From Leisingera sp. ANG1 (GTDB taxonomy: Bacteria; Pseudomonadota; Alphaproteobacteria; Rhodobacterales; Rhodobacteraceae): a stretch of DNA of 64,000 nt. The translations under genes and the position numbers were made by a program. The notes under the pieces were generated by a model, which ran no database searches, had not been told where the DNA came from, and saw only the letters and a list, made by a program, of their open reading frames with translations. Positions 54,961-57,416 of the stretch are shown one piece after another (position 1 is the stretch's first letter; each line of letters opens with the position of its first letter). The DNA is taken from the NCBI RefSeq assembly GCF_000203975.2, contig NZ_AFCF02000008.1, positions 124,001-188,000 of the forward strand. Direction: 5' to 3'.

Positions 54961-55464
54961 TTAAGCGCCCCCGGCGCCGTCTAGGAATTCCATTGGATCG
55001 AAACCTTCTGGCAGGTCGTCCATCCATTCTTCGGCCTGGGCCAGTTCCTCTGCCTCGTAGGTTTCCGGCTTCCAGATCTGGAAGGTGTCGCCTGCGGCGA
55101 TAAAGAAGGCCTCTGCCTCAAGGTCGATTTTCTGGCGCAGCTTGGCCGGCAGAACCAGGCGGCCGGTCTCATCCACGTTGGTCGGGAACGACTGACCGTG
55201 GAACATGCGCTGCAGCATCTTGCGCTGCATCGAGCCGCGCGGGAGCTGGTCGATCTTGGCGTCGACCTCCTCGATCGCCTCTATAGTATAGCATTCCAGG
55301 AAGTTGCGGCGCTGGTCGCCGTAGACGATCACCAGTTCGGGGTTCTGGCCGGGCTGCCAATTGGGGTCAGCGGCCTCCAGCACACGGCGAAAGGAGGCAG
55401 GAATTGACACCCGCCCCTTTGTATCCACCTTGTGGTGGCTTTCGCCTCTGAACCTGCGGCCCAA
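54961..55464 (-). CDS. mraZ: Transcriptional regulator MraZ
   Basis: 167 residues with two AbrB-type (SpoVT/MraZ) swapped-hairpin domains: RFRGESHHKVDTKGRVSIPASFR (first) and PTNVDETGRLVLPAKLRQK (second), each with the DxxGR core. MraZ represses the dcw operon in E. coli by binding TGGGN repeats. The start is TTG at 55464 with AAGGA 7 nt upstream (LGRRFRG matches family starts). The leader upstream carries a terminator-like stem and two groups of MraZ boxes. Confidence 0.95.
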   Translation of the reverse strand: MGRRFRGESHHKVDTKGRVSIPASFRRVLEAADPNWQPGQNPELVIVYGDQRRNFLECYTIEAIEEVDAKIDQLPRGSMQRKMLQRMFHGQSFPTNVDETGRLVLPAKLRQKIDLEAEAFFIAAGDTFQIWKPETYEAEELAQAEEWMDDLPEGFDPMEFLDGAGGA

Positions 55465-55513
55465 TTTCCCGTCCTTTTCGCGCGTCCCTCGCGTTAATCC
55501 GTCCCCCAGAATG

Positions 55514-55553
55514 AAAAGGGGCGGGTTGATCTGCTGCCACTGATCAACCCGCC
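55514..55553 (-). terminator. Terminator/attenuator in the mraZ leader
   Basis: Perfect 12-bp stem (GGCGGGTTGATC / GATCAACCCGCC, 55520-55531 and 55542-55553) followed on the minus strand by CCTTTTC. It stands 50 nt before the mraZ start. In the mraZ leader of Rhodobacter sphaeroides a Rho-independent terminator ends the sRNA UpsM; this is the likely equivalent. Confidence 0.8.
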
Positions 55554-55870
55554 GCCTTGGCCCGCTTTGCGGGATGTCCGACTGCACGCGCCACCTGGGG
55601 GGATGTCTGCTCGCCCGCGCGCCGGATCTCTTGGTTCGATGAAAGCGAAGGCCTGTATGAAACCTGCTTGTTTTGTTTTTGGCTCTGGGGTCGTTTGGCG
55701 CCCCGTCCCTCGTCTCATCCGATGAACTAGGGATACTATGGGAATTGATGGTCCCGCAACTGTTTTCTGCGGGAAATCGCCGAAGCCTTGACAAGGAATC
55801 CGCAGATTCGGGCAAGATTCGCAGTCAAATTAGGGCAAAATTCGGAACCACTAGTGAGTAAACTCAGCGC
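55514..55870 (-). ncRNA. upsM: UpsM-like leader sRNA of the dcw operon
   Basis: Long untranslated mraZ leader of roughly 400 nt, from a predicted start near 55870 to the terminator at 55514-55553. An sRNA of this kind, UpsM, is described from the mraZ 5' leader in Rhodobacter sphaeroides. Within it are a stem CCCGCA..TGCGGG (near 55753-55773) and other short stems. Boundaries and existence as a stable RNA are inferred, not shown. Confidence 0.55.
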
Positions 55871-55876
55871 AAACAC

Positions 55877-55904
55877 TAGATATAGACACAGATTGCAGAG
55901 GCAA
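55877..55904 (-). promoter_or_regulatory. Predicted dcw (mraZ) promoter
   Basis: On the minus strand: TTGCCT (-35, 55899-55904), 16-nt spacer, TATCTA (-10, 55877-55882), giving a start near 55870. It is directly beside the four-box MraZ operator. Confidence 0.5.
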
Positions 55905-55910
55905 CTTTTT

Positions 55911-55942
55911 TCCCATAGTTTCCCGCGATTCCACAGATCCCG
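55911..55942 (-). promoter_or_regulatory. Proximal MraZ operator: four GGGA/TGGA-type boxes
   Basis: On the minus strand, boxes CGGGA, TGGAA, CGGGA and TGGGA lie 8-10 bp apart, the last ending 7 bp before the -35. MraZ of E. coli binds repeated TGGGN with 10-bp spacing, so this is a canonical-style operator. Confidence 0.7.
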
Positions 55943-56076
55943 CGCTCACGAATTTGAATGTTCCCGATACGTTCTCGCCCAGCAATCAGAAACAGCGCTA
56001 AAAACGCCCTGCATAAGCGTTTCAACACTGAGTGATTCGCAACTTCAAGGGGTGCATTGCAGGGAAAGGGCCATGA

Positions 56077-56216
56077 TTTCCCATGCTGCCCATGATTTCC
56101 CGCAGTTCCCGTGATTTCCCATCAGTCCCACGCTTTCCCAGCGGTCCCATAAGTTCCCGCCCGGCGCAGCATGTGCCATGCAGTCCCATTTCCGGCGGGC
56201 AATCCCATTTGCGCCC
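56077..56216 (-). repeat. Distal MraZ-box array: nine regular boxes plus three upstream
   Basis: On the plus strand CCC triplets start at 56080, 56089, 56099, 56108, 56118, 56127, 56137, 56146 and 56156: spacing 9,10,9,10,9,10,9,10. Read on the minus strand each is TGGGA, CGGGA or (once) TGGGC, the MraZ box. Further boxes start at 56185, 56204 and 56214, with decayed positions (CC near 56176 and 56193) keeping the rhythm. The first part is a 19-bp tandem unit with two boxes, copied four times. No gene lies in it. Confidence 0.75.
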
Positions 56217-56289
56217 AAAGCAACAGAATACTCCGCCCCCGCTGTGCTCTGCGCGCAGGCAACCAATGGTTCACCCCCGTCATGCTAAT

Positions 56290-56351: not shown

Positions 56352-57416
56352 TCAGGCCATGCCGCCGCCGATCAAGCCTTCGGCAATGCGGGCATAGGCC
56401 TGGGCCATTGGCCCCTCCCCCGCGGCGATGGGCGTGCCGCTGTCGCCGGCCAGGCGGGTCTCCAGATCAATCGGCAGAGCCCCCAGCAGAGGCAGGCCAA
56501 GGGTTTCGGCCTCTGCCGCGACGCCGCCGTGGCCGAAGATGTGATGTTCGCCGCCGCAATCGGGACAGGTGAAGAATGACATGTTCTCAATCAGTCCCAG
56601 CACCGGGGTTTTAAGGGTGTTGAACATGTCCATCGCCTTGCGTGCGTCCAGCAAGGCCACATCCTGCGGGGTGGAGACCACGATGGCGCCGGAAAGCTCT
56701 GCCTTGGTGCACAGCGTCAGCTGCACGTCGCCGGTGCCGGGCGGCAGGTCGACGATCAGCACGTCCAGCTCGCCCCAATTCACCTGCCCCAGCATCTGCT
56801 GCAGTGCGCCCATCAGCATCGGGCCGCGCCAGACCACGGCCTTGGCGTCATCCACCATGAAGCCGATCGACATCAGGGTGACGCCATGGGCGTGCAGCGG
56901 CTCGATGATTTTGCCGTCCGGGCTGGCGGGGCGACCCCTGGCGCCCATCATCCGCGGCTGGGACGGGCCGTAGATGTCGGCATCCAAGAGGCCCACCTTG
57001 CGGCCCTGTTTGGCCAGCGCCACAGCGAGGTTCGACGACACGGTGGACTTGCCCACCCCGCCCTTGCCGGAGGCGATGGCCAGGATACGCTTGACGCCTG
57101 CGGGTTTCAGCGGCTCCGCCTGCGGCTTCGGGTGACCGCCGACCTTGAGGCTGGGTGCGGGCTGCTGGGGGGCATGGGCGGTCAGCGCGGCGGAGACGGT
57201 TTCAACGCCTTCCAGCGACTGCACCGCGGCCTCGGCGGCCTTGCGCAGCGGCTCCATCAGCTTGGCGATCTCGGGGCTGGGCGCCTCGATAACGAAGCTC
57301 ACCTTGCCGCCCTCGATGCGCAGGGCGCGCAGCATGTCACGGGAGACCAGGGTGCCGCCGTCCGGCAGCGCCAGCCGTTCCAGCACCGCGCGAATCTGTT
57401 CCTGTGTGACACTCAT
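56352..57416 (-). CDS. apbC: Mrp/ApbC-family Fe-S cluster carrier ATPase
   Basis: 354 residues. An N-terminal MIP18-like domain (about 1-75) precedes a linker and a P-loop ATPase domain. Deviant Walker [12 protein letters not shown] (115-125), [16 protein letters not shown] (Walker A' region), [14 protein letters not shown] and the cysteine pair FFTCPDCGG, used to carry an iron-sulphur cluster. Mrp/ApbC delivers Fe-S clusters to apoproteins. Alternative family name NBP35. The gene is single and reads towards the distal MraZ array; its promoter is in the gap shared with the DUF1127 gene. Confidence 0.95.

Follow-up and report, generated by a model that had tools for sequence, protein, structure and literature searches.

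Few bacterial regulators are as widely conserved as MraZ. In E. coli, one short MraZ operator lies near the promoter (Eraso et al. 2014, via the available parts of PMC8475190 and PMC7761207). In Burkholderia cenocepacia, repeats with a 10-bp period before mraZ were bound by purified MraZ in gel shifts; in the part of the paper considered here, four repeats are described at the start site only, and a probe farther upstream was unbound (PMC7761207). The same partial source describes MraZ as an octameric ring, and for the Mycoplasma genitalium protein with promoter DNA there are cryo-EM entries in the PDB (9sz7, with a four-box promoter, and 9r4j; entry-level information). In R. sphaeroides, the start of the mraZ transcript was mapped 268 nt upstream, reporters and 5′ ends indicated a single mraZ promoter at this position, and a terminator in the leader yields the sRNA UpsM; we found no description of MraZ sites in the UpsM region in the available sections of that paper (PMC5089854). 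In the same species, CenR was enriched upstream of mraZ in a ChIP experiment, without a clear motif (PMC9275681, available in part). The MraZ literature among the matches listed, with subscription journals mostly outside its scope, described neither a long nor a multi-site MraZ array.

The mraZ upstream region of Leisingera sp. ANG1

We analyzed a stretch of 64,000 nucleotides from Leisingera sp. ANG1 (the window), in which mraZ is preceded by three MraZ-type sites: an inverted site O1, a direct site O2 about 170 bp upstream of it, and a direct site O3 located farther out. The features of the region are as follows.

56352..57416, minus strand: apbC/mrp, the upstream neighbour (Pfam PF10609, 325 bits; PF01883, 64.6 bits)
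56069..56217, minus strand: O3, distal MraZ-type array (sequence, pair PWM, TRF, shuffles, conservation in the genus)
56033..56039, minus strand: CGAATCA, GANTC site between O3 and O2 (sequence)
55911..55925, minus strand: O2, direct box pair CGGGAAACTATGGGA (PWM 19.6 bits at -461; weaker boxes to about 55942)
55873..55886, minus strand: P2, conserved element TCTATATCTAGTGT after O2 (pattern search)
55730..55759, minus strand: probable promoter under O1, TTGCGG, 18 bp, TATCCC (from position and consensus)
55729..55753, plus strand: O1, inverted operator AGGGATACTATGGGAATTGATGGTC (PWM 15.0 and 15.3 bits at -279 and -289, opposite strand)
55508..55556, minus strand: terminator-like hairpin of the mraZ leader, UpsM-type (-27.7 kcal/mol, z -6.0)
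54961..55464, minus strand: mraZ, TTG start, 167 aa (Pfam PF02381, 63.2 bits against a cut-off of 23)

The strict run of O3 consisted of nine YGGG boxes on the minus strand with steps of 9, 10, 9, 10, 9, 10, 9 and 10 bp (first bases at 56083, 56092, 56102, 56111, 56121, 56130, 56140, 56149 and 56159), three of which begin with CGGG instead of TGGG. Outside this run, intact boxes start at 56188, 56207 and 56217, and degenerate ones were seen at about 56073 (TGGcc, a tenth box), 56168 and 56178. The original prediction of a nine-box 9/10 array upstream of mraZ, continued by decayed and intact boxes, was thus borne out; its placement 600-750 nt before the gene had to be adjusted to about 619-695 nt for the strict run and about 753 nt for the outer boxes, since mraZ most likely starts at the TTG at 55464. 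TRF reported a period of 19 bp with 4.6 copies and 75% matches, and the pair PWM gave 15-21 bits for five pairs at -695, -676, -657, -638 and -619, and 9.3 bits for an outer pair at -724. The longest 9/10 run in the intergenic region was nine boxes, against a maximum of four in 20,000 dinucleotide shuffles and at most three in the other 2-kb tiles of the 64-kb window.

A four-box 10/9/10 pattern matched only O3 and one poly-C tract in the genome of this strain; the tract is long (G000:C1:302622-302687) and possibly phase-variable or an assembly artefact. A six-box 10/9 pattern had matches in 4 of 394 family genomes, namely this one, one more Leisingera genome, G359 (with the same array as the named locus L019 has before mraZ) and one GC-rich repeat. 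The backward-read control of the six-box pattern also matched 4 genomes, three of them through the same arrays, owing to the near symmetry of the layout. A five-box TGGG pattern (steps of 9 or 10 bp) was matched by 6 of the 249 phylum genomes searched; one match lies where another Rhodobacteraceae genus (G230) has its O3, and three are in perfect tandem repeats. A comparison with Rfam returned a single sub-threshold match (H19_3, E 0.51), and we rejected an RNA family as an explanation of the array.

Like a canonical MraZ-box operator, O3 has TGGG-type direct boxes upstream of mraZ. However, a canonical operator has a strict 10-bp period and three to five boxes at the promoter, whereas O3 alternates 10 and 9 bp and has nine boxes in the strict run, 619-695 nt upstream. 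Because of its alternation we classed O3 as a variant MraZ-box operator, and O1 and O2, both with a 10-bp period, as ordinary members.

The common unit in 80 named relatives was the box pair YGGGAAWTCATGGGM, with 10 bp from one box to the next. For comparison we took the region upstream of mraZ in E. coli K-12, which reads TGGGAAATTGTGGGGCAAAGTGGGAATAAGGGG; of its first 15 bases, 12 agree with the consensus. The boxes are called MraZ boxes mainly because E. coli has the same motif at the same gene; this likeness supports the MraZ-type boxes of the original prediction and makes the MraZ reading of the array likely. The exact pair motif occurred in the genome of this strain only in O3 and in one copy inside a gene which we take, by eye, to encode a sodB-like superoxide dismutase (FWEMMG). 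We treated this second copy as a probable coding coincidence; its 14-mer was present in 19 of 21 genus genomes, the gene context being that of the ANG1 genome only. Further pair-pattern matches were noticed in genus genomes, e.g. in G001:C11, G005:C2 and G010:C1. A wider MraZ regulon was considered and rejected, as the strict pair pattern occurs only twice in the genome of this strain, the second time within a gene.

The encoded MraZ was 99% identical to MraZ of named Leisingera records and had the paired DxxxR-type motifs of the family, D14..R18 and D98..R102, which were invariant in 14 MraZ sequences including that of E. coli. The predicted fold had a mean pLDDT of 66; its best structural match had a Z score of 2.7 to unrelated chains, and MraZ chains scored 2.2-2.4.

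O1 comprises three boxes with a 10-bp period, the two outer ones being imperfect, and so fits the canonical size of three to five boxes. Its family consensus, TTgatT ... ATCCCT, has promoter-like spacing, and its anchor was found at a median of 293 nt before the start of the mraZ match in 123 genera, which is compatible with the 268-nt leader of R. sphaeroides, a species without an entry among the named loci. We therefore infer that O1 overlies the UpsM/mraZ promoter. Against this, a consensus sigma-70 scan gave no promoter in this region of the window, O1 included. As in an UpsM-type leader, a terminator hairpin is located between the probable promoter and mraZ: none of 200 shuffles folded as well, and UUUU follows, while a simple terminator scan did not have the hairpin at 55508-55556 in its output. 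In the original prediction, a four-box operator at 55911-55942 was placed beside the promoter. This is the middle site O2, and the site which covers the likely promoter, O1 on the opposite strand at 55729-55753, had been missed; the two-site picture of a distal and a proximal operator thus gave way to three sites.

Three phased sites across the Rhodobacteraceae

O1 was present in 80/80 named loci, 19/19 genus loci and 123/129 other genera. O2 was found in 78/80, 19/19 and 108 of the 123 genera with O1, and O3 in 78/78, 19/19 and 95/108, respectively. All three sites, in order and orientation, were thus recovered in 95 of the 129 other Rhodobacteraceae genera, and 34 failed the thresholds for the full set. 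These counts were obtained with matrices trained on the same sequences that were scanned, with the 99th percentile of reversed upstream regions as the threshold for O1 and the 95th percentile per window for O2 and O3, which allows about 5% false hits per window. The 129 genera are those fetched of 188 others, the 59 left out having mostly weaker MraZ matches or lying near contig ends. There is some overlap between the sets. Over 700 bp, 11 of the 19 genus loci are identical to a named locus, and a stretch shared with a named locus was seen in 6 of the 129 genera.

A scan by position zone gave a similar picture, with direct units in 98/128 genera at -900 to -560 and 114/129 at -560 to -380 (10 and 4 in reversed controls), and inverted units in 128/129 at -380 to -200 (5 in controls). 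Outside the family, we used 39 alphaproteobacteria drawn from 72 matches. An inverted unit was present less than 200 nt from mraZ in 37 of them, and the runs detected in such bacteria were inverted, with a 10-bp period and 3-5 boxes. Direct units occurred in 1, 1, 5 and 3 of the 39 in the four zones, compared to 1, 1, 1 and 2 in the controls. O2 and O3 therefore look like Rhodobacteraceae additions. Three sites with one motif make up a multi-operator arrangement for a regulator that is presumably MraZ. In many genera O2 was preceded by a AAAATTTT-like AT-rich stretch, possibly a bend.

The distance from O2 to O1 was 145-190 bp in 177 of 186 sequences (78 named loci and 108 genera; nine were outside this range). 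The values clustered at 148-153, 160-164, 169-176 and 181-186 bp, and one value (169) fell in the gaps between clusters, which were drawn after the data were seen. For O3-O2 in 95 genera, clusters were seen at 112-115, 122-127, 133-138, 143-148, 154-158, 165-168 and 176-177 bp, with nine values elsewhere. Over these roughly seven turns, the Rayleigh R was 0.65 at 10.75 bp, 0.63 at 10.5 bp and 0.48 at 10.0 bp. A 10-bp register artefact was considered as the source of the phasing. Among 48 genera with unambiguous box register, R peaked at 0.62 at 10.7 bp, and 2,000 random sets never exceeded 0.44; on these genera and the comparison of periods, the artefact was rejected for O3-O2. The rejection is less sharp for O2-O1, which spans only a few turns (R 0.68 at 10.0 bp versus 0.77 at 11.0-11.5 bp).

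To take relatedness into account, we compared 75 non-overlapping nearest pairs on a tree of leader sequences. The O3-O2 distance differed by at least 5 bp in 47 of the 75 pairs, mostly by 8-15, 19-24 or 30-34 bp, and none of 5,000 jittered versions of these 47 differences reached the observed score. The O2-O1 distance differed by at least 5 bp in 13 of the 75 pairs, by 9-12 or 21 bp. The concern that kinship causes the phasing is thereby reduced, although still present because the tree was built on short leaders. As judged by the compared sequences, the distances between sites change mostly in whole helical turns, in steps of about 10.5-11 bp, and the spacing is phase-dependent by evolutionary comparison alone. 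The simplest reading is that the sites have to lie on one side of the helix, as looping or bridging would require, and the phased distances suggest that MraZ bridges them. The phasing could instead stem from another phased protein; P2 is also phased. As to the earlier idea that the array loops to the proximal site, helical phasing makes looping likely, but the site at the likely promoter is a different, inverted one.

O3 runs had 6-9 boxes in 18 of 19 Leisingera loci, one locus having three. In the 108 other genera, the runs were of one box (34 genera), two (61), three (5), four (6), five (1) or six (1), and runs on the opposite strand reached at most two boxes. Nine boxes are accordingly not the general state; the expansion is typical of Leisingera, against one or two boxes family-wide. 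Among the named loci outside Leisingera, L028 from a Phaeobacter MAG has a run of 10 boxes and L054 from Roseovarius nubinhibens one of 7, which suggests that the distal site expanded more than once. The record L020, under the name Nocardioides marinus, had a roseobacter-type mraZ locus with an eight-box array, and this name is probably wrong.

The steps within O3 were 9 bp in 70 cases and 10 bp in 89 in the genus loci. In the same loci, O2 had 19 steps of 10 bp and none of 9, and O1 only steps of 10. In the 108 other genera, O3 had 21 steps of 9 bp, 102 of 10 and 25 of 11 (5, 1 and 4 on the opposite strand). Strict 10/9 alternation therefore belongs to the expanded arrays and, within the locus, to the distal site only; as 9-bp steps are a minority outside the genus, alternation is dispensable for the basic layout. 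In an alignment of 20 genus sequences anchored on the last pair, identity was 0.965 in the GGG cores, 0.767 in the other array columns and 0.64 and 0.67 in the flanks. Box number and rhythm were thus kept in relatives while the rest drifted. An origin by duplication of box pairs, as had been proposed, is supported by the 19-bp tandem period and by one pair being the commonest state in other genera. The comparison of loci shows that Leisingera O3 expanded in 19-bp steps from the one or two boxes usual elsewhere to some nine or more. The pairs located 177 and 158 bp from O2 were -0.8 and +1.6 bp off the family phase, and those at 196, 215 and 234 bp were -3.2, +5.1 and +2.7 bp off. The near pairs, within about 2 bp of phase, would fit a bridge, and the outer pairs would wind round the helix.

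Other conserved elements between the sites

P2 (TCTATATNTNGTGT) was found with at most two mismatches from the core CTATATNTNGTG in 98 of 108 genera, compared to 13 of 108 for reversed controls. The distance from the start of O2 to that of P2 is 37-41 bp in 70 of the 98 genera, and in the others mostly about one turn less or more. A second perfect copy of P2 in the genome of this strain was noticed just upstream of a reading frame, presumably gyrA-like as recognised by eye. A reading of P2 as an NrdR box was not supported, and we dropped it.

GANTC is the CcrM methylation site, used by GcrA, and a GcrA gene is present in the genome of this strain. Of 95 genera, 81 have CGAATC or GATTCG between O3 and O2. 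GANTC in this interval was counted 175 times, with 66.6 expected (95 genera), as against 47 with 50.9 expected between O2 and O1, and 9 with 103.7 expected, a depletion, from O1 to mraZ. Phasing of CGAATC to O2 or O3 was not clear (R 0.28-0.39). DnaA-like boxes were seen in the O3-O2 interval of 9 of 95 genera and in the O2-O1 interval of 8, with 0.3 and 0.6 expected, respectively. Perfect DnaA-type boxes TTATCCACA were observed near O2 in L019, L023, L027, L033 and L040 (about -537 to -555) and on the other strand in L056, L062, L069, L072 and L084 (about -480 to -540). The two groups of relatives thus have them in opposite orientations. A link of dcw control to replication is possible.

Proposed role of the array and comparison with known systems

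We consider the array to be an expanded distal auxiliary operator, O3, and propose that MraZ acts on three phased, bridged sites, with the effect of tightening dcw autorepression; we assign this reading, made from sequence, a probability of roughly 0.7. MraZ rings would bind O1, O2 and O3. On O1, MraZ would block the mraZ/UpsM promoter, as do promoter-side operators in E. coli and Burkholderia. With the sites on one helix face, MraZ on O2 and on O3 could touch each other or the MraZ on O1, and the looped or bridged complex would tighten autorepression of the division and cell-wall (dcw) cluster. As the outer pairs of the array rotate out of phase, we propose that the extra pairs mainly raise occupancy, local MraZ concentration or ring wrapping. 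A more elaborate version, in which the phased three-site MraZ loop controls dcw with cell-cycle input inside the loop (GANTC methylation, and DnaA boxes in some clades) and Leisingera O3 is a ring-loading array whose 10/9 steps wind the DNA round MraZ, is tentative and we hold it rather doubtful.

Alternatively, MraZ on O2 and O3 might serve as a sink, a local reservoir or an upstream activator, without a bridge to O1, and the phasing would then reflect contacts made side by side with RNA polymerase or with some other phased protein, for instance a P2 binder. P2 is indeed conserved and also roughly phased to O2, and successive 19-bp units lose phase along the array, as would suit a sink; however, the O3-O2 phasing holds over about seven turns without a fixed element in between, and we regard this explanation as unlikely. 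It is quite improbable that O2 and O3 are read by another factor with a similar motif, such as the response regulator CenR: the consensus of O2 and O3 is the same pair motif as in O1 and E. coli, and TGA-N8-TGA is absent from 55440-56220 of the window, even though the CenR enrichment upstream of mraZ in R. sphaeroides (PMC9275681, in its available part) fits such a factor, and TGA-N8-TGA occurred 28 times between O3 and O1 in 95 genera, with 14.4 expected by crude base shuffles.

The array might also serve a second, distal promoter under cell-cycle control by GANTC methylation and GcrA, rather than the O1 promoter. The conserved CGAATC lies just downstream of O3 and the GcrA gene is at hand, but no consensus promoter was detected in the window region and the available sections of PMC5089854 give one mraZ promoter in R. 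sphaeroides, 268 nt upstream, which leaves this option very little weight. That the array is a functionless neutral tandem repeat or a chance run can practically be dismissed. GC-rich tandem repeats can match such patterns (one of the four six-box genomes and three of the six five-box genomes), yet no shuffle out of 20,000 exceeded four boxes, the cores are conserved within the genus and the one-pair ancestor site is conserved across genera.

The phased three-site layout is the larger finding, and the nine-box array is one expanded part of it. Family-wide phased sites imply that MraZ, or another binder there, acts at a distance, and Rhodobacteraceae offer a natural series of spacings and array lengths on which MraZ action can be tested. 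The layout also suggests that, in this abundant marine family, DNA methylation and replication signals are linked to the control of dcw, the principal cluster for division and the cell wall.

In B. cenocepacia, repeats with a 10-bp period also precede mraZ, without the distal site of Leisingera, as far as the part of that study considered here goes. The M. genitalium entries likewise show MraZ on multi-box DNA, but with four boxes, a distant MraZ and, in the entry-level information, no distal array. The UpsM leader of Rhodobacteraceae mraZ belongs to the same family and is a long leader with a terminator hairpin (PMC5089854, in part). The dcw MraZ-box operator of E. coli resembles O1 and O2 in its gene, its nearly identical box pair and its 10-bp steps; in contrast to that single operator, Leisingera has three sites, with nine or more boxes in 10/9 alternation at O3. 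The lac, gal and ara systems are known for looping repressors with phased auxiliary operators. The layout described here would resemble them in that a single oligomeric regulator has several sites, spaced in helical phase, and it differs from them in that the phase is known through evolution alone and the sites are box arrays.
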